Assembly (NCBI RefSeq): GCF_000766945.1 | Contig: NZ_KN266212.1 | Span: 33,623-80,420, forward strand | Source of the DNA: Cellvibrio mixtus subsp. mixtus J3-8 | Lineage (GTDB): Bacteria > Pseudomonadota > Gammaproteobacteria > Pseudomonadales > Cellvibrionaceae | Length of the DNA stretch: 46,798 nt | Direction of reading: 5' to 3' | Part shown: positions 23,274 through 34,928 of the stretch, piece by piece | Position numbering within the stretch: the first letter of the stretch is position 1 | How the letters are laid out: each line of letters starts with the position of its first letter | Position numbers and translations under genes: made by a program | The notes under the pieces: generated by a model | Database searches by the model: none | Seen by the model: only the letters and a program-made list of their open reading frames with translations | Told to the model about the DNA's origin: nothing

Positions 23274-25124
23274 TTAGTTGACTTTACTGATGCGAATCCA
23301 GTTGATGTTCCAACCGCCCGCATTCACTTTAATGCCAAACTTGTGGCTGCCCGCACCCAAATTCACAGTGTGTTTGATGGTGGTCCAGTTTTGCCAGCCG
23401 CCGGTACCCGGGATGGCGAGTGTTCCGTATACGGGCGAACCGCCAGCCTCTTCAAACGTCAGGCTACCGCCACCGCTTTGGCTGGCGACGCGATACTCAA
23501 TCACATAGTTGCCGGTACTTGGGATGTTTATCGGGGTTCCTGCGTAGGACAACCAATCACCGGCATCGATATAACCCACATTTTTACCGCCGCCAGTGTC
23601 CGTCGTATTTTCCGTTTGGGTGCCTTGTTGCTGGCTGAAATCTTCCGCTTGCAGTGTGGCGATGACGGTGCCAGGGTTGGTGTTATCAACGCTTTCCACT
23701 TTCAGCCAGTTCACATTGAATCCACCGGTAATGGCGGAGATGGCAATTAACTGCTCACCTGCTGGCAGCACCACATTGTGGGAAACCGTTTGCCAGTTTT
23801 GCCAGCCGCCGGTTGTTGGTACATTGATGCTGCCATACACCGGGCTGCCGCCGGCTTTCTCCAGTTTGAACTGGCTGCCGCCAGCCGGGGCTGCAACGCG
23901 ATAACTGACTTTGTACGTGCCGGTCACGGGAATATTGACCGCGTAAGTCATCCAGTCATTACTATCGATATACCCCACATTTTGTCCACCGCCAACGTCA
24001 GTGGTGCCCTCGGTTTGGATGCCATCAGCCTGGCAATAGCTTTCAGCCTGGATGGTCTCGCTTACGTTAGACGTGGTGCAAGTTGGTGTGGGATCAACCG
24101 GGCCGGACGGACTTGGCCAGTTGCGGATAATATCTTTCGCAAACGCGCCCGATGCGGTGAGTTGCGAGCTGGCCCAGCCACCCCCGGCACTGGCGCCGGG
24201 AACCAATGAAGACGAACCTTCGGCTTTATCATTCAGCGCCCAATTCGCATGGCTGATGTTGTTGCGCTTCATAAAGTCGACCCAGGCGTTGGTCTCGCCA
24301 TAGTTTACGCCACCGTCGCCATTGGCATTCACTGACCCCCATTCGGTGACAAAAATCGCGGCGTTATTGTCGAGTGCAGTTTGGGCGAAGTCGCGAATCG
24401 GCTGGCCGTGGGAGCCTGCATAAAAGTGCAGCGTATAGGCGATATTGTTGCCTGCGATGGGATCGCGCGCGGCCTCATCAACGCGTTGTGACCAGGTGCG
24501 GGTGCCGACAATAATCAGGTTGTCCGGATCAATCGCACGGATCGCATTCACCACTTGCTGTGCGTAGGGTTTGATCACTCCGCTCCATGACGCCGTGTCC
24601 AGCGGTTCGTTGTACACCTCGTAAATAACATGGTTTTTATTGCCATAAGTGCGCGCCATTTCCTGGAAGAAGGCGATGGACTGAGCGGTGTATTGCTCGG
24701 CGTGGTGGGTATGCCAATCGATAATCACATACATGTCATTGGCGATGGCGGCATCGACCACGGCTTTTACTTTATTTTTATTGCCGGTTGGATCTTGCAG
24801 GTAACCGCCGCCTTCCTCAACGCCCATCGCTGCGCGCACAAGATTGGAACCCCAATCGGTTTTCAGCCAGCGCACTGCATCGGCGTTGTAATACTTTTCG
24901 CCGCCCCAGCCGTTATTGCTCCAGAACAAGCTATTGCCGGCAAAGCTGGCAACCTGGTTGCCAGCGAGGATTTTATTACCGCTCACCGACAGCGGTGCAA
25001 CATCGGCCATGGCGATACCGGATAGCAAACCGATTCCAGCCAGGGCAGAGATTTTCAGGAAGGACGTCAGTATTGCCTTGTGTTGATACGCGGCGCGTTT
25101 GCGACTGAAAAAATTATTGTTCAT
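23274..25124 (-). CDS. Secreted GH5 endo-beta-1,4-glucanase with two CBM6 modules
   Basis: A 616-residue exported cellulase. An N-terminal basic stretch and hydrophobic segment ending GIAMA form a long signal peptide. The GH5 domain (about 42-340) shows GNSLFWSNNGWGG, VIIDWHTHH, acid/base E173 in VYNEPL and nucleophile E261 in FVTEWGSV, as in GH5 subfamily 2 endoglucanases. After a Pro/Thr linker come two CBM6 modules (about 352-480 and 488-616), each with the conserved NVGYID-x-x-DW segment and the GGWQNW aromatic motif. The order GH5-CBM6-CBM6 is that of Cellvibrio mixtus Cel5A, whose second CBM6 binds several beta-glucans including mixed-linkage and beta-1,3 forms. Co-location with GH16 genes fits joint attack on beta-glucans. 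Confidence 0.93.
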   Translation of the reverse strand: MNNNFFSRKRAAYQHKAILTSFLKISALAGIGLLSGIAMADVAPLSVSGNKILAGNQVASFAGNSLFWSNNGWGGEKYYNADAVRWLKTDWGSNLVRAAMGVEEGGGYLQDPTGNKNKVKAVVDAAIANDMYVIIDWHTHHAEQYTAQSIAFFQEMARTYGNKNHVIYEVYNEPLDTASWSGVIKPYAQQVVNAIRAIDPDNLIIVGTRTWSQRVDEAARDPIAGNNIAYTLHFYAGSHGQPIRDFAQTALDNNAAIFVTEWGSVNANGDGGVNYGETNAWVDFMKRNNISHANWALNDKAEGSSSLVPGASAGGGWASSQLTASGAFAKDIIRNWPSPSGPVDPTPTCTTSNVSETIQAESYCQADGIQTEGTTDVGGGQNVGYIDSNDWMTYAVNIPVTGTYKVSYRVAAPAGGSQFKLEKAGGSPVYGSINVPTTGGWQNWQTVSHNVVLPAGEQLIAISAITGGFNVNWLKVESVDNTNPGTVIATLQAEDFSQQQGTQTENTTDTGGGKNVGYIDAGDWLSYAGTPINIPSTGNYVIEYRVASQSGGGSLTFEEAGGSPVYGTLAIPGTGGWQNWTTIKHTVNLGAGSHKFGIKVNAGGWNINWIRISKVN

Positions 25125-25703
25125 TATTATTCACCAGGATTGTGATTGTTTACCAAAATTGCCTTACGGGAGATTGCCCCGGTACTCAGGGGTAGGGTTA
25201 TTTCAATCGTCGCTACCTGGTCAAACCACCTACTTTACGTTGCAACCTAAAGTGGCAAGTGCCACTTCATCACCTGCGGATACTGATAAAACAGCAATTG
25301 TGTTATTACTAAAACCGGAATCATTTATAAAAAGACTTTCCTTATGCTGATGAAAGAATCCTTTATCCGGTGTACGCGCGTTCAATCTCTGCGATTGTTG
25401 AAAAGTCGATACGGGATTATTTAAAAAATGTGTGATCACAGTGCGGTTGAAATAACGCACGGGCAAAAACATCGCGCGATCGTTGTGCAATAAAGTGATT
25501 GTAAAATTAACAATTTTGCAAAGCTTACATCGTTAACCTCCTGTTTTTGTATGAGTTTTTGGTTAAACATCCCGGTAATACCCCGCTGTTCTCTCCTTGG
25601 AAATTACAAATTATTGTTATTTGGCATGTTTTTGTAACCTTGGCTCAATACTCGCTAAGCGGTTGTGGCGCTTTGGATTAACAACCTATTTCTGAGGAAG
25701 ATT
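25125..25703. promoter_or_regulatory. GH5 / stressosome divergent control region
   Basis: A 579-bp region between the GH5 start (minus) and rsbR (plus), with no credible gene. It contains the 12-mer GGTCAAACCACC at 25219-25230, shared with the GH16/AraC region, and the near-perfect palindrome AAGTGGCA-AG-TGCCACTT at 25250-25267, which has the size of a repressor operator. The AT-rich part 25500-25650 probably holds the stressosome promoter, but no convincing -10/-35 pair could be fixed. Confidence 0.5.
25250..25267. promoter_or_regulatory. Palindromic candidate operator upstream of GH5
   Basis: Perfect 8-bp arms (AAGTGGCA/TGCCACTT) around two bases, centred about 134 bp upstream of the GH5 start. 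The half-site AAGTGG also appears in the 7-bp inverted repeat upstream of the distal GH16 gene (21251-21276). Confidence 0.5.
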
Positions 25704-26567
25704 ATGAGTAACACCAAGAGTACACAGCTTGCGGCAGTGATCACCGAATTTCAGGAGCCATTACTGGACGGCTGGTTGACCGGGCTTGCCTCGCGCTTGC
25801 GCCGCGATAAAAGCGGCGTGATGGATTTACGTGCGCAGGCTGCGCAGTTTTTACCTTTATTGGCGAAGACATTGCAGGAGGCAAAATCTACGAATATCGA
25901 AGAGCCGGAGTGGACCGAGTTGCGTCAATTGCTGGCTGAAATTTCCCAGTCGCGCGTGCGCCAGGGCTTTACTCCGATCGAAACCGCTAACTTTGTTTTC
26001 TCCCTCAAAGAACCGATTTTTGAATATTTGCGCAAGGCGTTGGTTAATAGTCCACTACAGGCGGGCGAAGAAATCGCCACGACGAGCACACTGTTTGACT
26101 CCCTCGGGTTGTATACCATCGAGGTTTATCAAAAAGCGCGTGAGCAAATTATCCTGCGCCAGCAACAGGAATTACTTGAGCTTTCAACACCCGTAGTACA
26201 ACTGTGGCAAAACGTCCTGGCCTTGCCATTGATTGGTACGCTGGATAGTTCCCGCACGCAAGTGGTAATGGAAAGCCTGTTGCAAAAAATCGTGGAAACC
26301 GGTGCGCTCATTGCGATCATTGATATTACCGGTGTCCCTACCGTGGACACATTGGTAGCGCAGCATTTATTAAAAACTATCGCCGCCGCGCGCTTGATGG
26401 GGGCTGATTGCATTATTAGTGGTATCCGTCCGCAAATTGCGCAAACGATTGTGCACCTTGGGGTCAACCTTGAAGACGTCATCACCAAAGCCACATTAGC
26501 CGATGCCTTTGTTGTTGCATTGCAGCGCACAGGTTCAAGCATTCAAGTCATCAATAACGGGCGTTAA
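25704..26567 (+). CDS. rsbR: RsbR-type stressosome scaffold/sensor protein
   Basis: A 287-residue RsbR paralogue, the sensory scaffold of the stressosome. The N-terminal all-helical domain (about 5-150) looks like the RsbRD-type N-terminal domain, with no sign of a globin or PAS domain. The C-terminal STAS domain (about 165-280) has IIDITGVPTVDTLVAQHLL and GIRPQIAQTIVHLGVNL. The Thr residues in these two motifs are where RsbT phosphorylates RsbR homologues. GAGGAAG before the ATG at 25704 fixes the start; the frame is open upstream to 25665. First gene of an rsbR-rsbS-rsbT operon. The signal sensed is unknown. Confidence 0.92.
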   Translation: MSNTKSTQLAAVITEFQEPLLDGWLTGLASRLRRDKSGVMDLRAQAAQFLPLLAKTLQEAKSTNIEEPEWTELRQLLAEISQSRVRQGFTPIETANFVFSLKEPIFEYLRKALVNSPLQAGEEIATTSTLFDSLGLYTIEVYQKAREQIILRQQQELLELSTPVVQLWQNVLALPLIGTLDSSRTQVVMESLLQKIVETGALIAIIDITGVPTVDTLVAQHLLKTIAAARLMGADCIISGIRPQIAQTIVHLGVNLEDVITKATLADAFVVALQRTGSSIQVINNGR

Positions 26568-26572
26568 GCGTT

Positions 26573-26926
26573 ATGGAACGAATTCCTATTTTGCGGATGG
26601 GCCGGTTATTGCTGGTGACTATCCAGGTCGATATGCATGATCGCCTGGCGATGGCATTGCAAGAAGACCTCACCACGCGCATCGTAAAAGATCGTGCTAA
26701 TGGTGTCCTCATTGATATTTCTGCACTCGATATTGTCGATTCTTTTATTGGCCGCATGATCAGCGACACCGCTGCCATGGCAAAAATCCTGGATGCGAAA
26801 ACCGTGTTGGTGGGAATGCAACCGGCGGTTGCCATTACGCTGGTGGAATTGGGCCTGGCCCTGGAAGGTGTGCGCACCGCACTGAATGTTGAATTGGGAA
26901 TTAAAATGCTGGAGCGACCGGATTGA
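26573..26926 (+). CDS. rsbS: RsbS-type stressosome STAS protein
   Basis: A 117-residue single STAS domain protein, the partner that forms the stressosome core with RsbR and holds RsbT. IPILRMGRLLLVTIQVDMHD and IDISALDIVDSFIGR are clear RsbS signatures. S57, in DIVDSFIGR, corresponds to the Ser phosphorylated by RsbT (Ser59 in Bacillus subtilis), so the switch residue is intact. It begins 5 bases after the rsbR stop and its own stop overlaps the rsbT start, which argues for balanced expression of the complex. Confidence 0.93.
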   Translation: MERIPILRMGRLLLVTIQVDMHDRLAMALQEDLTTRIVKDRANGVLIDISALDIVDSFIGRMISDTAAMAKILDAKTVLVGMQPAVAITLVELGLALEGVRTALNVELGIKMLERPD

Positions 26927-27399
26927 TTCAATCTCTGGCAAATACTCCACGAGTAAATCACATGGGTAACGAATCTTTTTCTTCTCGCATGAATTCCGGG
27001 GAGACCGTAGTGTTGCCGTTAAAGACAGACGAAGATGTTGTTCGTCTGCGCAAGCAGGTGCGGGATGATTTGATCGCAATGAAGTTTAGTCTTATTGACC
27101 AAACCAAGATGGTGACCGCTGCAAGTGAGCTCGCGCGTAATACATTGCGCTATGGTGGTGGTGGCGAAGCGCATGTCAGTCGTCGGCTGGATAGTGATAG
27201 AACCGGTATCGAGTTGAGTTTTGTTGATAAGGGGCCCGGTATTGAAAACCTGGAACTGGCAATGACTGACGGTTATACCAGTGGGGGTGGATTGGGGTTG
27301 GGATTGAGTGGAGCAAAGCGCCTTGCTGATGAATTTCATATTGATACCGAGCCTGGTAAAGGCACCCGCGTCACCATCGCCAAGTGGAAACTATTTTAA
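26923..27399 (+). CDS. rsbT: RsbT-type serine/threonine kinase (switch protein)
   Basis: A 158-residue GHKL-fold kinase of the RsbT family. It has the N box ASELARNTLRYGGGG, the G1 box DKGPGI and the glycine-rich lid GGGLGLGLSGAKRLADEF, followed by KGTRVTIAKW. In known stressosomes RsbT phosphorylates RsbR and RsbS, is released, and activates a downstream output protein. The TTG at 26923 has GGAG 8 bases upstream and overlaps the rsbS stop (coupled translation). The ATG at 26962 is an alternative that shortens the protein by 13 residues. No RsbU gene, the usual target, follows. Confidence 0.92.
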   Translation: MIQSLANTPRVNHMGNESFSSRMNSGETVVLPLKTDEDVVRLRKQVRDDLIAMKFSLIDQTKMVTAASELARNTLRYGGGGEAHVSRRLDSDRTGIELSFVDKGPGIENLELAMTDGYTSGGGLGLGLSGAKRLADEFHIDTEPGKGTRVTIAKWKLF

Positions 27400-27533
27400 A
27401 GTCAGCGTGTACACAAAAATTATTTCACTATACGAGCCATTACCAGGAAATTGCGCGCGACGCGAAAAAAGGCGTGAAAATTTTGGAAATCGTTGCGTAC
27501 CTGTTTAACAATGGATGCAGTTGAGTAAATGTT

Positions 27534-28598
27534 TTGATTAGTTACGGAACACAATTGGTTTTTCGCCTGGAGGACAGCAGCGGTGTTGCTGTTGTTCGCC
27601 GGGCTGGCGGTGTTTTAGCGCGCGAATTGCAATTTGATGAAACCCGTGCAGGGCAATTAGCATTGGTAATTACCGAAGCCGCTACCAATATTGTCAAACA
27701 TGTCGGGTATGGCGAAATTTTATTGCGCGCACTGCATCAAAAAAATGCAGCGGGCATTGAAGTTTCCGGCGTAGAAGTTATCGCAATTGATAAAGGTGCG
27801 GGTATCCGCGATTTGCATTTGCAAATGGAGGATGGACATTCCACCGCTGGCACCTATGGTATAGGTTTGGGTGCTGTGCGCCGCCTTAGCCATGAATTTG
27901 ATATCTATACCTCGCCGGAAAAAGGCACTGTGTTATTGATGATTATTTGGGCCGATGAGCGGCAAGTTCAGCCACCTTTTTGGCAGGTTGGTGCGATCTG
28001 TGTACCGATTGAAGGCGAAGAAGTCTGCGGTGATAACTGGGCCATTGCCGCTCGCCAGGGCGCCTTGACGCTGATGGTTGCTGATGGGCTGGGGCACGGA
28101 CCCGATGCAGCGATTGCTGCAAATGCGGCGGTATATTTGGTTGCCCAACATGCTGATCAGTCGCCGTCAATTATTTTGCAGCGCGCGCACAATGATCTGC
28201 ATGGAACTCGCGGTGCTGCGGTTGCAGTCAGTAAAATCGATCCTGGTAACACACGTTTGACTTTTGCAGGTATAGGCAATATTTCTGTCTGTGTGTCTTA
28301 TACCGATAGCTCCCGTCACCTCGTTTCCCACAATGGAATTGTCGGAAGCAACCTGCGCAAGTTGCAAGAGTTTTCAGAAAGCTGGGACAGCGATGCCTTG
28401 TTAATCGCTCATAGCGACGGCATTAATACACGCTGGAATCTTGATCTGTACCCTGAATTGCGCTACTGCCATCCCGGATTGATTGCCGCTGTCATTTATC
28501 GCGATTTTTCGCGGGAACGGGATGACGCTACAGTTGTCGTTATCCGGGAGGCCGGTAATACGGCAGCAGGCTTAATCAATAGCCGGAGCGGCGCATGA
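27534..28598 (+). CDS. RsbT-like ATPase fused to SpoIIE/RsbX-type phosphatase
   Basis: A 354-residue fusion. Residues 1-140 are a GHKL ATPase related to RsbT (N-box ITEAATNIVKHVG, DKGAGI, YGIGLGAVRRLSHEFDIYT, KGTVLLMIIW). Residues 150-345 are a PP2C-fold phosphatase of the SpoIIE/RsbX type, with GDNWAIAA, ADGLGHGPDA (metal-binding Asp/Gly) and a final RDDATVVVIRE strand. By analogy with RsbX it should dephosphorylate RsbR/RsbS and reset the stressosome. The start is TTG because no ATG in frame lies nearby, and the ribosome-binding site is weak. A gap of 134 bp separates it from rsbT, while its stop overlaps the next ATG (ATGA). Confidence 0.88.
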   Translation: MISYGTQLVFRLEDSSGVAVVRRAGGVLARELQFDETRAGQLALVITEAATNIVKHVGYGEILLRALHQKNAAGIEVSGVEVIAIDKGAGIRDLHLQMEDGHSTAGTYGIGLGAVRRLSHEFDIYTSPEKGTVLLMIIWADERQVQPPFWQVGAICVPIEGEEVCGDNWAIAARQGALTLMVADGLGHGPDAAIAANAAVYLVAQHADQSPSIILQRAHNDLHGTRGAAVAVSKIDPGNTRLTFAGIGNISVCVSYTDSSRHLVSHNGIVGSNLRKLQEFSESWDSDALLIAHSDGINTRWNLDLYPELRYCHPGLIAAVIYRDFSRERDDATVVVIREAGNTAAGLINSRSGA

Positions 28599-30388
28599 CT
28601 ATCCGTATTCTCACTGCGCAGGTAAAAACCGAAACCGATGTTGTATCGGTGCGTCAGCGCGCAAAACAAATTGCACAGCTATGTGGTTTTGGCATGCAGG
28701 ATCAGGTGCGTATTGCTACATCGGTATCAGAGCTTGCTCGCAATGTTTTTAATTATGCTGGACAGGGCAAAATTTCGTTCGCGATTGAAGGGAATACCGC
28801 GCCGCAAATTCTTACTATTCACATTGAAGACAATGGGCCGGGTATTGAAAATCTGGATTTGATTTTGTCCGGCAATTACAAATCACCAACCGGAATGGGC
28901 ATGGGAATTATTGGGGCCCGTCGCCTCGCAGACAGGTTTAACATCAAAACCGGGCCCGATATCGGCACCCATATAACACTTAAAAAAATATTCCCGCGCT
29001 TTGCCGCACTCATTACTCCCGAGTCGAGCAGCAAAATTTTTGCGCGCCTCGCCAATATGGCGACGGAAATCAGTGTTACGGAAATTATGCAGCAAAATCA
29101 GGAACTGCTGTCCGCTCTCGCGGAATTAAAAGCGCGCCAGGATGATTTGCTATTGTTGACGCGTGAGCTGGAAGATACCAACCGCGGTATGGTCGCGCTC
29201 TATGCAGAACTGGATGAAAAGGCCGGGCACTTGCGCCGTGCAGATCAAATGAAGTCACGTTTCTTATCCAACATGAGTCACGAATTTCGAACTCCGCTCA
29301 GTTCTATTCGCGCCCTGGCAAAGTTGTTGCTGGATCATGTGGACGGTGATCTCTCTTTCGAACAGGAAAAACAGGTTGCCTACATTTTGCAAGCAGCCAC
29401 TGGATTGAATGAGTTAGTAAATGACTTGCTGGATATCGCCAAAATTGAAGCGGGCAAAGTGGATGTGCGGCCTTCGCTGGTGGACGTTGGCAAGATGTTT
29501 AGTGCGTTGCGGGGAATGTTGCGCCCCTTGCTGATCTCCGAATCGCTCCGGTTAACGTTTGTAGAACCGGAAACGCCGCTTGAATTATTTACCGACGAAG
29601 CCAAGCTTTCGCAAATTTTGCGCAACTTTATTTCCAACGCGCTGAAATTTACCGAAGCTGGTGACATTGTGGTGAAAGCAATATCAATCCCGGAAAAAAA
29701 CCAGGTGATGTTCAGTGTGGCAGACACTGGTGTTGGCATTCGCGAGGAAGATTTGCAATTAATTTTTGAAGAGTTCAGCCAGATCGAACATCCATTGCAA
29801 CGGAAAGTAAAAGGCACGGGGCTGGGACTGCCGTTGTGCCGCAATCTGGCAAAACTGTTGCGCGGTGATGTTGCCGTTATTAGCGAGGTGAACGTTGGAT
29901 CTACGTTTTCCGTAACCTTGCCGATGACGATTAATATTCCCGGCGAAATAATTACCGAGATAATTCCGGTGCGGGTTAAAACCAATGATGTGCGCAAACC
30001 GGTATTGATCATTGAGGATAATGTTTCTGTTCATTTGCAATACGAAAAATTTTTGCACAACACCGAGTTTCGCACTATCGCCGCCAGGAATTTACGTGAA
30101 GCTGCCGAGCGTTGGACAGCAGAACGGCCGGTAGCCGTAATTCTGGATATTGTGTTGCAAGGTGAAGACAGCTGGCTATGGCTGGCGGAAATGAAAAATG
30201 ATCCGGCGCGTAGCGATGTGCCGGTCATTATCGTTACTGAAGTTGAAGATAAACGGAAAGGATTATCCCTGGGCGCCGATGCCTATTATGTTAAACCCCT
30301 GTTCAAGCAGCAATTGCTATCGACCTTGCGTACCTTGGTCGGGCAACCGTCGCTTGAGCTTTCGCACGAACAGTTGTCTGGCATTTAA
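28595..30388 (+). CDS. RsbT-like ATPase fused to histidine kinase and receiver
   Basis: A 597-residue, soluble three-part protein. Residues 1-140 are an RsbT-like GHKL domain (SVSELARNVFNYAGQGK, EDNGPGIENL, GMGMGIIGARRLADRF). A coiled coil (about 155-220) leads to HisKA with H229 in MSHEFRTPLSS, then a full HATPase domain with DTGVGI and KGTGLGLPLC. A C-terminal receiver has acceptor D518 in AVILDIVLQGEDSW and a KPL switch lysine. There are therefore two ATPase folds in one chain: one likely to bind stressosome or anti-sigma-type partners, one to drive a phosphorelay. Start overlaps the preceding stop by 4 bases. I infer it is the output of this stressosome. Confidence 0.88.
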   Translation: MTIRILTAQVKTETDVVSVRQRAKQIAQLCGFGMQDQVRIATSVSELARNVFNYAGQGKISFAIEGNTAPQILTIHIEDNGPGIENLDLILSGNYKSPTGMGMGIIGARRLADRFNIKTGPDIGTHITLKKIFPRFAALITPESSSKIFARLANMATEISVTEIMQQNQELLSALAELKARQDDLLLLTRELEDTNRGMVALYAELDEKAGHLRRADQMKSRFLSNMSHEFRTPLSSIRALAKLLLDHVDGDLSFEQEKQVAYILQAATGLNELVNDLLDIAKIEAGKVDVRPSLVDVGKMFSALRGMLRPLLISESLRLTFVEPETPLELFTDEAKLSQILRNFISNALKFTEAGDIVVKAISIPEKNQVMFSVADTGVGIREEDLQLIFEEFSQIEHPLQRKVKGTGLGLPLCRNLAKLLRGDVAVISEVNVGSTFSVTLPMTINIPGEIITEIIPVRVKTNDVRKPVLIIEDNVSVHLQYEKFLHNTEFRTIAARNLREAAERWTAERPVAVILDIVLQGEDSWLWLAEMKNDPARSDVPVIIVTEVEDKRKGLSLGADAYYVKPLFKQQLLSTLRTLVGQPSLELSHEQLSGI

Positions 30389-30451
30389 GGCCAGATGTGA
30401 CAATGCATTCGTAGCGTTTGATCACAGGGAAAAATTCTTGAGGAATGTTGT

Positions 30452-31984
30452 ATGCCGCTACGGCCTTATAAAGACGCGCTGATTTTAAATGTTGATGATA
30501 GCGACGGCGCGCGCTATGCAAAATCACGCATTTTGATTCGCGCCGGCTTGAAGGTCATTGAAGCATCCAATGGTGAAGATGCCCTTGCCAGAGCGCGTAG
30601 CGAATCACCGATCCTGATATTGCTCGACGTAAAACTTCCAGATATTAATGGCTTTGAAGTGTGCCGCCGGTTGAAAGAGGATCCTGCCACCCAGGCAATT
30701 TTAATCTTGCAAACGTCTGCATCATTTATCGGGGCCGCCGACAAAATTCGCGCGCTGGATGGCGGTGCGGATAATTACCTGGTTGAACCTATTGAGCCCG
30801 ACGAATTAATTGCCAATGTAAAAGCGCTCTTGCGTTTGGGGCAAGTTGAACGCGAATTGCGGGAAGTTGATCGGCGCAAGGATGAATTTCTCGCAACGCT
30901 CGCCCATGAATTGCGCAATCCCCTCGGCCCGATTCGCACTGCATTGCAATTACTGCGGCGCCTTGACCCCGATGTTCCCCCGGCACAGGAAAATGCACGC
31001 AATACGATCCAGCGCCACACCGATCACCTCGTTCGGCTGGTGGATGATTTACTGGATGTTGCGCGTATTTCCCAAGGGAAAATTTCGCTACGCCATGAAG
31101 CTGTGGATTTGCATTCAGTGGTCAACAACGCTATCGAAACCTCTACACCCTTTATTGAAAATAAAGGCCATCGCCTGACCGTAACTTTTCCGGATGAACA
31201 ACCCGTGGAGGTCTGTGGTGACCAGGTTCGCTTATCGCAAATCCTGGCGAATTTATTGCTCAACGCAGCCAAGTTTACGTCGCCGGGTGGCGATATAAGT
31301 TTATCGGTAACGGTGCACGAGCAGAGCGTTTATATCCGGGTTTCCGACAATGGCATTGGTATCGAGCCTGAATCGGTAAATATTATTTTTGATTTATTTT
31401 CCCAGAACGGCCATTTGCATGGCCAGGTCCAGGATGGTTTGGGAATTGGTTTGTCGCTGGTGAAAACCCTGGTGGAGCTCCACGGTGGTAGTGTTAAAGC
31501 AACCAGCGAAGGGTTGGGGTTGGGCAGCACGTTTGAAATTGTGTTGCCGCTGATTGCCAGCACTGCGGCGAGTTCCGTTTGCCTTGATACGGCGACAAAC
31601 AAGCAAAAGGTTTCCTCCGTGCTGCCAATCAAAAAAATCCTGATTGTCGATGACAATGCCGATGCAGCCGATATGTTGGCAGAGCTCCTTACGCTGACGG
31701 GGCATAATGTTCAGACTGCCTACACCGGCATGCAGGCGCTTGATGTGACTGCGCAATTTGGCCCTGAGATTATCTTTCTGGATATAGGTTTACCGGATCT
31801 CAGTGGCTATGAAGTTGCGACCCGGTTGCGCGCGCTACCCAATGCACAGGCGTTTACACTTATCGCATTAACCGGTTACGGCCAGGATCATGACCGGCAA
31901 AATGCATTGGCGTCCGGGTTTGATGATCACTTTGCCAAACCGGTCGATTTTGAAAAATTAAGTGCGCTTGGGCTCAGTGTTTAG
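30452..31984 (+). CDS. Hybrid kinase, receiver-HisKA-HATPase-receiver
   Basis: A 510-residue soluble hybrid kinase. An N-terminal receiver (about 8-125) has D59 in LLDVKLPDINGF and switch residues TSA and EPIEPDE (Glu in place of the usual Lys-Pro). HisKA has H152 in LAHELRNPLG, the HATPase domain has DNGIGI and DGLGIGLSLVKTLV, and a C-terminal receiver (about 395-505) has D444 in FLDIGLPDLSG and KPV. GAGGA 7 bases before the ATG gives a clear start. It lies 63 bp after the RsbT-like/kinase fusion, and no DNA-binding or GGDEF output follows. It likely receives phosphate from, or competes with, the preceding kinase. Confidence 0.88.
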   Translation: MPLRPYKDALILNVDDSDGARYAKSRILIRAGLKVIEASNGEDALARARSESPILILLDVKLPDINGFEVCRRLKEDPATQAILILQTSASFIGAADKIRALDGGADNYLVEPIEPDELIANVKALLRLGQVERELREVDRRKDEFLATLAHELRNPLGPIRTALQLLRRLDPDVPPAQENARNTIQRHTDHLVRLVDDLLDVARISQGKISLRHEAVDLHSVVNNAIETSTPFIENKGHRLTVTFPDEQPVEVCGDQVRLSQILANLLLNAAKFTSPGGDISLSVTVHEQSVYIRVSDNGIGIEPESVNIIFDLFSQNGHLHGQVQDGLGIGLSLVKTLVELHGGSVKATSEGLGLGSTFEIVLPLIASTAASSVCLDTATNKQKVSSVLPIKKILIVDDNADAADMLAELLTLTGHNVQTAYTGMQALDVTAQFGPEIIFLDIGLPDLSGYEVATRLRALPNAQAFTLIALTGYGQDHDRQNALASGFDDHFAKPVDFEKLSALGLSV

Positions 31985-32076
31985 CCTTTTATCAGGTAAT
32001 TGCCCGCTTTTCTTTGCATCATCGGCATTTTTCTACAGGTTTACCCCTAATTTCCTCCCGCCCTCCTGGATTCGCC

Positions 32077-32105
32077 TTGCATCACCACACTCGAATCCGT
32101 ACAAT
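32077..32105 (+). promoter_or_regulatory. Sigma70 promoter of the rpsF operon
   Basis: TTGCAT (32077-32082), a 17-base spacer, and TACAAT (32100-32105) form a near-consensus promoter. Transcription should begin around 32112, giving a leader of about 100 bases before rpsF. Confidence 0.75.
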
Positions 32106-32111
32106 TCCGCA

Positions 32112-32211
32112 CCCCAAACCGGCCGGGGGTATGAGATGCGCAAGCATTCGAAAACCGGCTACTCCTTGTCTCACAACAGCCGTTGGAGACTTTAACCCGT
32201 AAGGAGCTTAC
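32112..32211 (+). promoter_or_regulatory. rpsF leader, candidate S6:S18 autoregulatory RNA
   Basis: The roughly 100-base leader folds well. GCCGG (32122-32126) pairs with CCGGC (32155-32159) around an inner ATGC-GCAA-GCAT hairpin. A second hairpin, GTCTC (32168-32172)/GAGAC (32186-32190), is extended by CAAC/GTTG and shows a CCG at its apex. In several bacteria the S6:S18 complex binds a CCG-containing element in this leader to control its own operon. The match to that RNA family is suggestive, not proven. Confidence 0.4.
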
Positions 32212-32649
32212 ATGCGTCATTACGAAATCGTGTTCCTGGTTCACCCGGACCAAAGCGAACAAGTACCTGCAATGGTAGAGCGTTACACCTCTGCTATCAA
32301 AGCTGACGGTGGTTCAGTTCACCGTTTGGAAGACTGGGGCCGTCGTCAATTGGCCTACTCAATCAACAAAGTACACAAAGCTCACTATGTTCTGTTGAAC
32401 GTTGAGTGCTCTGACGCTGTGTTGGAAGAGTTGACTACCAACTTCCGTTATAACGATGCCATCCTGCGTAGCCTGGTTCTGCGTGAAGATGCTGCGATCA
32501 CTGAAGAATCTTTCATCCTCAAAGCCGAGAAAGAAGGCCGTGAGCGTAAAGCACGTCCGCCACGCGCTGAGCGTCGTGATGATGCAGAAGACCTGTCTGA
32601 TGAAGACGGCGTTGATGCTGAAGACTTTGAAGAAGAGCAGGGGGTATAA
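32212..32649 (+). CDS. rpsF: Ribosomal protein bS6
   Basis: A 145-residue ribosomal protein S6 of the 30S subunit, which binds the central domain of 16S rRNA together with S18. The N-terminal [33 protein letters not shown] and the [13 protein letters not shown] segment are typical. It ends in a long acidic tail (residues about 122-145, [20 protein letters not shown]), as in many gammaproteobacteria; in Escherichia coli the S6 tail is glutamylated. AAGGAG precedes the ATG. First gene of rpsF-rpsR-rplI. Confidence 0.98.
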
Positions 32650-33521: not shown

Positions 33522-34928
33522 ATGCCCAATACTGCCTACGAAACCTCCAGCTTTGAGAGTCGCCTGGCCGATGAGTTATCCGGTAAGTCAGCGCTGCCTC
33601 ACTCGATAGAAGCCGAGCAATCGGTATTGGGTGGCTTGATGCTGGAAAACGGCCGACTGGATGCGGTATTGGAAGTGGTCTCGGAAAGTGATTTTTTCCG
33701 TGAGGATCATCGTGTCATTTTCCGCATGATGCTCAATTTGCAGGAAGCCGGCCAACCGCTGGATGTTATTACTCTTTCCGAAGAGCTACATAAGCACGAA
33801 GAGTTGGAGCGTGTAGGCGGCTTGGGTTATCTGGTCGAGATGGCCAATAACACGCCAAGTGCAGCCAATATTGCGGCCTACGCCAAAATCGTGCGCGAGC
33901 GATCAACGTTGCGCCAACTGATTGCCGCTGCACAAGATATCAGCAAATCCAGTATGAATCCGGCCGGGCTGGATTCGGATGATCTGCTGCAGCTCGCTGA
34001 AAAACGTGTGGCTGAAATTGCGGAAGATCGCCCTAAAGAGGGTGGTTTGGTCGGGGTGAACGAGTTGCTCAAGCAAACCGTTCAACGTATCGACGAATTG
34101 TTTCGCTCCGGCAGTGACATTACTGGTGTTCCCTCCGGAATTGCTGACTTGGATCAACGTACCTCCGGTTGGCAACCGGGTGAGCTTATTGTTCTCGCTG
34201 CGCGTCCGTCCATGGGTAAAACCGCATTGGCTTTGAATTTCGTGGAAGGTGCGCTGTTTAACCAGCCGAAACCGGTGGTTATCTTCAGTATGGAAATGCC
34301 GTCCTCGGCCCTTATCATGCGGATGATGTCGTCTATTGGCCGTATTGATCAGGGCAAAATGCGTAACGGCAAGTTGACGGAAGAGGATTGGCCGAAGCTG
34401 TCATCGGCGGTTGCCAAGATGAAAGACAAACTGTTGTTTATCGATGATACCGGTGGTCTGAACCCGCAAGAAATGCGTGCGCGTATTCGTCGCATTGCCC
34501 GCGAGCACGGCAACCCCGGCATGATCATGGTCGACTATTTACAGTTAATGACTGTTGCCGGTGGCGGTGAAGGCCGTACCCAGGAAATCTCCGAAATATC
34601 TCGCTCGTTGAAAGGCATGGCTAAAGAGTTTGAATGCCCGATGATCGCGCTCTCCCAGTTAAACCGTGGTGTGGAGCAGCGCCCCAACAAACGCCCGATG
34701 AACTCGGACTTGCGTGAATCGGGCGCGATCGAGCAGGACGCCGACGTGATCCTGTTTATCTACCGCGATGAGTATTACCACGAAGACAGCCCTGACAAAG
34801 GCATTGCCGAATTGATTATCGGCAAGCAGCGTAACGGTGAGATCGGCACCAGTCGCGCCGCTTTCGTGGGGAAATACACCCGCTTCGATAACCTCGCCCC
34901 TGAATATTTCCAGAATGATGGTTACTGA
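33522..34928 (+). CDS. dnaB: Replicative DNA helicase DnaB
   Basis: A 468-residue hexameric replication-fork helicase (5'-3'). The N-terminal domain (about 24-125) starts LPHSIEAEQSVLGGLML. A linker helix follows, then the RecA-like ATPase domain (about 200-460) with Walker A ARPSMGKTAL (K233), Walker B MIMVDYLQLM, and the DnaB signatures LSQLNRGVEQRP and SDLRESGAIEQDADVI. Length is standard, and there is no intein. The rpsF-rpsR-rplI-dnaB order is the common gammaproteobacterial arrangement. The ribosome-binding site is weak, and the rplI terminator suggests a separate promoter. Confidence 0.98.
   Translation: MPNTAYETSSFESRLADELSGKSALPHSIEAEQSVLGGLMLENGRLDAVLEVVSESDFFREDHRVIFRMMLNLQEAGQPLDVITLSEELHKHEELERVGGLGYLVEMANNTPSAANIAAYAKIVRERSTLRQLIAAAQDISKSSMNPAGLDSDDLLQLAEKRVAEIAEDRPKEGGLVGVNELLKQTVQRIDELFRSGSDITGVPSGIADLDQRTSGWQPGELIVLAARPSMGKTALALNFVEGALFNQPKPVVIFSMEMPSSALIMRMMSSIGRIDQGKMRNGKLTEEDWPKLSSAVAKMKDKLLFIDDTGGLNPQEMRARIRRIAREHGNPGMIMVDYLQLMTVAGGGEGRTQEISEISRSLKGMAKEFECPMIALSQLNRGVEQRPNKRPMNSDLRESGAIEQDADVILFIYRDEYYHEDSPDKGIAELIIGKQRNGEIGTSRAAFVGKYTRFDNLAPEYFQNDGY

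Follow-up and report, generated by a model that had tools for sequence, protein, structure and literature searches.

An RsbT-like domain on a hybrid histidine kinase as a candidate link between stressosome and phosphorelay in Cellvibrio mixtus and distant bacteria

In the window analysed here, the whole stretch of 46,798 nucleotides at positions 33,623 to 80,420 of contig NZ_KN266212.1 from Cellvibrio mixtus subsp. mixtus J3-8 (assembly GCF_000766945.1), a six-gene stressosome operon encodes a hybrid histidine kinase, T-HK (28595..30388, + strand), that begins with a domain resembling the stressosome kinase RsbT. The arrangement is kept in distant bacterial groups which, as far as sequences can tell, suggests that the kinase reads the stressosome directly. 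Our preferred reading, to which we give a probability of roughly 0.4, is that this is a Gram-negative-type stressosome with a phosphorelay output, in which the RsbT-like head of T-HK docks on the STAS-domain shell. An original prediction, made from the window's letters, had proposed that such a domain could bridge the two signalling systems; the fusion proved to be real, widespread, old and tied to rsbRST, but the domain is dispensable in 8/17 operons.

T-HK consists of the RsbT-like domain (approximately residues 1-135), a long helix, HisKA and HATPase domains and a receiver domain (REC), as judged from Pfam, tree and fold. Pfam placed HATPase_c_2 (score 40.4) at residues 14-131, together with HisKA (68.1), HATPase_c and REC (50.8). 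The protein has the HisKA histidine, HATPase and REC aspartate of a hybrid histidine kinase, and H229 and D518 are invariant across five genomes of the genus. Within its own genome the N-terminal domain matched, at E ≤ 0.001, only itself, RsbT and the operon's phosphatase, T-RsbX. A predicted model of residues 1-140 (predicted local distance difference test score, pLDDT, 90; predicted template modelling score, pTM, 0.84) was submitted to Foldseek, where the 13 top ranks were SpoIIAB, RsbW and UsfX complexes (template modelling score by query 0.55-0.80), with histidine-kinase ATPase domains ranking below them. The domain is predicted from this model to have the SpoIIAB/RsbW/RsbT-type GHKL fold, and we count this likeness to STAS-binding kinases in favour of docking. 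The SpoIIAB-SpoIIAA and RsbV-RsbW complexes served as templates for docking RsbT onto RsbR and RsbS in PMC9237128. A phmmer search of the PDB with the single kinase N-domain and with RsbT gave no match at E ≤ 0.01; the PDB matches for the T-HK domain came through profile A4 and the fold search. For 14 proteins with kinase-borne RsbT-like domains (4 + 10), Pfam detected HATPase_c and a HisKA-type domain above cut-off in 14/14 (HisKA_2 in L107).

At 34 of the 35 loci examined, genes for RsbR, RsbS, RsbT and RsbX lie upstream of T-HK, and at 23 of these 34 T-HK is followed, on its own strand, by a gene for a REC or histidine-kinase protein. This linkage is also counted for docking, and with it the exception: a lone T-HK (L098, 5021-7518), in a genome that holds the full operon as well (G346), is divergent from an orphan RsbRD_N-STAS gene. 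Two unusual kinases were seen at other operons. One, at L107 (5883-7118), is a histidine kinase of HisKA_2/HWE type that bears the RsbT-like domain and is encoded behind R-S-T-(T)X; the other, beside the operon in G005 (L029, 3530-4666, - strand), has RsbRD_N (27.1 bits, cut-off 24.3) on HisKA-HATPase, and is a stressosome sensor domain carried by a histidine kinase.

The genome search proposed with the original prediction, for proteins combining an RsbT-type HATPase with HisKA and REC, found them in several phyla, co-occurring with rsbRST. T-HK was present in 5/21 genomes of the genus (57 genomes searched, the window's own counted). The six-gene cassette recurs in four further genomes of the genus and is therefore not due to chance; flanking genes differ in G003 and G005, and a genome of another genus (G024) has R-S-T-(T)X with no T-HK match. 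With profile A4, full or nearly full matches were obtained in at least 9/398 Pseudomonadota genomes (10 proteins), and G169 provided an extra case with the RsbT-like domain on a HisKA_2 kinase. T-HK was found in at least 7/194 genomes of Cyanobacteriota and at least 5/198 of Bacteroidota, the latter as two long matches and three short or partial ones, which are degenerate RsbT-like domains on histidine kinases. These counts are lower bounds, as the best 7 (Pseudomonadota) or 14-15 (Cyanobacteriota, Bacteroidota) candidates per genome were scored, and each phylum survey includes the genome it was centred on, which had been known beforehand to carry the operon. Named relatives with T-HK are Janthinobacterium, Pseudoduganella, Massilia, a metagenome-assembled genome of Burkholderiales, the cyanobacterium Pantanalinema and Pontibacter; plasmid-borne copies occur in Deinococcus radiodurans (MP1), Deinococcus sp. 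KNUC1210 and Caballeronia. The idea of a single-genome curiosity was discarded given T-HKs across the genus, phyla and plasmids. Left out of the analysis were L031 (a duplicate of L026), the possible actinobacterial T-HKs of Streptomyces (L039) and Embleya (L059), and the weak matches L040-L054 (E 1e-9 to 8e-5), of which only L040 and L041 were scanned.

The domain tree comprises 96 RsbT-like domains, among them 25 of the 35 kinase-borne ones (the other 10 are in the motif table only). These 25 formed one group (100/96), with a single change in all (100%) bootstrap trees, and we count this single origin for docking. The 34 RsbX-borne domains formed a separate group (99/96), and both groups include Pseudomonadota, a cyanobacterium, Deinococcus and Pontibacter. 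By this phylogeny the kinase-borne and RsbX-borne domains are old paralogues. A recent tandem duplication of rsbT was ruled out, the three domain classes being separate in the tree.

Stand-alone RsbT keeps its ATP-site motifs in 36/36 rows and the RsbX-borne domain in 34/34. Among the kinase-borne domains, 29/35, the window's T-HK included, keep at least 6 of 7 ATP-site residues, and 6/35 keep at most 2. The six dead domains are L037, L056 and L097 from Pseudomonadota, which share one group of the tree (95/97), and L142, L143 and L144 from Bacteroidota, which are in the motif table only; we infer that the Bacteroidota loss was independent of that in Pseudomonadota. All six retain Q37, T42 and R49, and five retain R39. 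T42 and R49 are each present in 36/36 RsbT rows, and in 0/34 and 4/34 RsbX-borne domains, respectively. On this alignment, part of the face common to RsbT outlasts the ATP site in kinase-borne domains, and loss of the ATP site with the RsbT-type signature kept would favour docking over a second kinase. The original prediction had named a fused domain without the RsbT surface as the result that would speak against it; the RsbT-type residues are retained. R20, K24 and Q25 of T-HK putatively align with R19, R23 and N24 of Bacillus subtilis RsbT. These three residues of B. subtilis RsbT are described as touching RsbU (PMC12143880).

That second kinase would be a Ser/Thr kinase: the fused domain would phosphorylate RsbS or RsbR, and the histidine kinase would feed back on the stressosome. 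The intact motifs of the 29 domains, the window's among them, fit this proposal; we nevertheless consider it unlikely given an ATP site that is dead in 6/35 domains from two phyla, against one intact in every RsbT row.

A signature coiled-coil linker entering HisKA (29069..29299, + strand; alignment, profile A5) is present both on T-HKs and on related kinases without the RsbT-like domain (T-less kinases). Treating the linker as a generic coiled coil was rejected: at E ≤ 1e-6 the profile matches 307/398 genomes, weak matches that are uninformative, and only the 19 matches of at least 60 bits were used. Seventeen of these adjoin the operon; the other two are the lone T-HK of G346 and a 1402-amino-acid frame of G135, a genome with no RsbS match. 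RsbS matches were found in 37/398 Pseudomonadota genomes, 17 of them scoring at least 176 bits and the next 120. Those 17 are exactly the RsbS-matching genomes that have a linker kinase of at least 60 bits, an agreement that is partly circular as profiles A4, A5 and A6 derive from operons of this kind.

Several observations weigh against docking. The RsbT-like domain is present on the kinase in 9 of these 17 operons and absent in 8, and therefore docking through the domain is not needed in the latter. Retention of ATP-site motifs in 29/35 domains is also compatible with a catalytic role. The RsbT-type arginine R20 is kept in 31/35 domains, the four exceptions being all from Bacteroidota and three of them ATP-dead. 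Pfam HATPase_c_2 missed the dead domains L097, L142, L143, L144 and L056, which were identified from alignment, BLAST and position (position 125 of L097 is T in one reading and P in the motif table). Finally, the full-length AlphaFold2 model of T-HK, which shows a helix at 161-247, has an overall pTM of only 0.39 and does not fix the placement of the domains.

Because 8/17 related operons have a kinase without the RsbT-like domain, the main rival to docking is that RsbT acts in trans: freed RsbT would bind and order the signature coiled coil of the kinase, thereby switching it, and the fused domain would be an accessory, either a competitor or a cis gate. We hold this to be less probable than docking. 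It draws on the linker signature being common to T-HKs and T-less kinases, and on the reports that RsbT switches RsbU on through the ordering of a coiled-coil linker and that RsbU_N histidine kinases adjoin rsbT (both PMC12143880); G391 has such a kinase. The kinases, however, lack the RsbU_N dimer domain, which makes up half of the surface by which RsbU contacts RsbT, and interaction tests of RsbT with the kinase D1 in Vibrio vulnificus are given as negative in PMC9237108. The T-less kinases themselves look derived. In a kinase tree built with a quick method from 45 rows above score limits (L091 and L092 are among those excluded), with the second kinase of the operon as outgroup, nine T-less kinases formed one group (99) nested within the T-HKs, and they most likely derive from one loss of the RsbT-like domain.

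The two-component genes might instead be co-located but functionally separate, the domain a relic and the kinases answering other signals. Patchy presence within the genus (5/21) and the loss of the RsbT-like domain in one lineage of the kinase tree would suit this, but we regard it as improbable: operon linkage is maintained across phyla, the 17/17 match of RsbS subfamily and linker kinase (to some extent a product of the query profiles) points the other way, and so does the lone T-HK adjoining an orphan RsbR.

Returning to docking, we infer the contact itself, the direction of the switch, the phosphate route and the output as follows. RsbT would be the writer, phosphorylating the STAS domains of RsbR and RsbS, T-RsbX the eraser that takes the phosphate off, and T-HK the reader of stressosome state, its RsbT-like module being the part that docks on the STAS shell, with ATP use optional. 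At rest the shell would hold T-HK. When RsbR senses stress, RsbT would phosphorylate RsbS and lower its affinity for RsbT-like heads; T-HK would then be released or re-oriented, and the change could travel along the long helix into HisKA. Phosphate would pass to the REC of T-HK and to those of the second hybrid kinase, and from there to a further, final receiver. A wider proposal, which we put forward a little more tentatively still, is that RsbT was copied early into a writer, an eraser and a reader on one STAS shell, the reader head being a kinase that became a docking module; in at least four phyla the stressosome would then drive the phosphorelay directly, with neither RsbU nor a sigma-factor cascade involved.

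The genes around T-HK have the composition of a stressosome module, with RsbR (sensor plus STAS), RsbS (STAS) and RsbT (GHKL kinase) co-encoded, all on the + strand. The gene rsbR (25704..26567) encodes an RsbRD_N sensor domain (83.8 bits) and a STAS domain (48.5), both above Pfam cut-offs; the open reading frame listing starts it at GTG 25665, and ATG 25704 is preceded by a ribosome-site-like GAGGAAG. It is followed by rsbS (26573..26926), with a single STAS domain (34.8), and rsbT (26923..27399), a stand-alone GHKL kinase (HATPase_c 51.1) with intact ATP-site motifs that clusters among the RsbT rows of the domain tree. Against the PDB, RsbR matched 7o0i (RsbR) at 8.8e-36 and RsbS matched 6jhk (RsbS) at 2.3e-32. 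Hydroxyl residues are present at all of the Listeria phosphosites compared (S56, T175 and T209, numbered as in PMC12154155): RsbS S57 corresponds to S56 when matched to 6qcm without gaps, and RsbR T216 and S182 align, also ungapped, with T209 and with position 175 (a T175A mutant chain), S182 being a serine where the Listeria site has threonine.

T-RsbX (27534..28598, + strand) has an RsbT-like domain (HATPase_c_2 40.4), which falls in the RsbX-borne group of the tree (99/96), and an RsbX-type PP2C phosphatase domain (SpoIIE 42.5). The original prediction had called it SpoIIE-like, which is refined to RsbX-type by its sole PDB matches at E ≤ 0.01, 3zt9 (6.6e-18, annotated as a SpoIIE domain) and 3w40 (1.7e-12, Bacillus RsbX). 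RsbX feedback phosphatases are single-domain proteins, and T-RsbX, with its N-terminal RsbT-like domain, is RsbX-like by its phosphatase domain only. A split form, with the RsbT-like part and RsbX in two separate frames, was seen at L109 (6533-7728). The last gene (30452..31984, + strand) encodes a REC-HisKA-HATPase-REC protein (Pfam: two REC, HisKA, HATPase_c), the probable phosphorelay partner of T-HK.

The six-gene order first proposed, rsbR-rsbS-rsbT, two RsbT-like fusions and a second hybrid kinase, was thus borne out by open reading frames and Pfam, as were the close or overlapping junctions: 4-bp overlaps join rsbS to rsbT and T-RsbX to T-HK, and gaps of 5, 134 and 63 bp separate rsbR from rsbS, rsbT from T-RsbX (whose start codon is uncertain) and T-HK from the last gene. 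Directly downstream come ribosomal protein S6, L9 and DnaB; as the original prediction stated, no RsbU, sigma-factor, GGDEF or DNA-binding gene follows directly. Upstream, on the opposite strand, is a GH5 cellulase with carbohydrate-binding modules; in G003 a BLUF blue-light protein (L028, 12829-13245, + strand, 96.8 bits) is divergent from rsbR. Terminator-like sites within 25100-32250 numbered 20 against 9.5 (standard deviation 3.5) in shuffles, and promoter-like sites were not enriched (8 versus 11.1). An Rfam search gave no family at gathering score and a tRNA search found none.

The lack of an RsbU gene agrees with RsbU_N (PF08673) having no match in the window's genome, sigma factors not having been searched genome-wide. 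A search of 30 genomes or records, with D. radiodurans represented by its plasmid only, gave no RsbU_N in 29, which we also count for docking. The sole case, in G391, stands at the front of a histidine kinase beside the RST genes; the module before the kinase varies between RsbU_N, an RsbT-like domain and none. Two other proteins of the window's genome combine SpoIIE with HATPase_c_2 (C1:1007241-1008335 and C6:192757-193857, in frames of 599 and 595 amino acids) and are possibly separate partner-switching outputs, perhaps linked to RsbT.

The T-HK family offers a physical candidate for the stressosome-to-kinase step in bacteria without SigB, and if docking is right, the stressosome would act on a phosphorelay with no RsbU or sigma-factor cascade in between. 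The family supplies its own natural controls (T-HK, T-less kinase, ATP-dead domain, RsbU_N kinase and a T-HK standing alone next to an orphan RsbR), and its presence in the laboratory strain D. radiodurans R1 makes the question directly testable. In the literature searched we found no description of an RsbT-like domain on a histidine kinase, although Pane-Farre 2005/2017 and Makarova 2001 may contain one.

Linkage of stressosome genes to two-component genes has been published (PMC9237108, PMC10014275). In V. vulnificus, rsbRSTX is likewise followed by two-component genes, D1/D2, with no sigB, and RSTX and D1 mutants are reported to have similar phenotypes (PMC10014275). As described, that system differs in its single-domain RsbX, globin-sensor RsbR and PAS-containing D1, and the accessible text of the two papers mentions no RsbT-like domain, whereas RsbX and the kinase of the window's operon each carry one. 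Histidine kinases with RsbU_N downstream of RST (PMC9237108, PMC12143880) are alike in fusing a kinase to a partner-switching module beside rsbT; there RsbU_N receives RsbT, whereas the T-HK module is itself RsbT-like. The D. radiodurans DR_B0028/DR_B0029 operon (plasmid MP1, L055) has the same gene order and T-HK as the window's operon. In the accessible text of PMC6501615 these two proteins appear only as histidine kinases tied to an antisigma-regulation operon (citing Makarova 2001), and proteomics there put DR_B0028 forward as a candidate for regulating the response to vacuum. With the Bacillus RsbRST-RsbU-RsbX pathway the operon shares RsbR, RsbS, RsbT and an RsbX-type phosphatase; it differs in that RsbU_N is missing from the window's genome and RsbV, RsbW and sigma genes from this operon, in the extra RsbT-like domain of its RsbX, and in an output proposed to run through histidine kinases.

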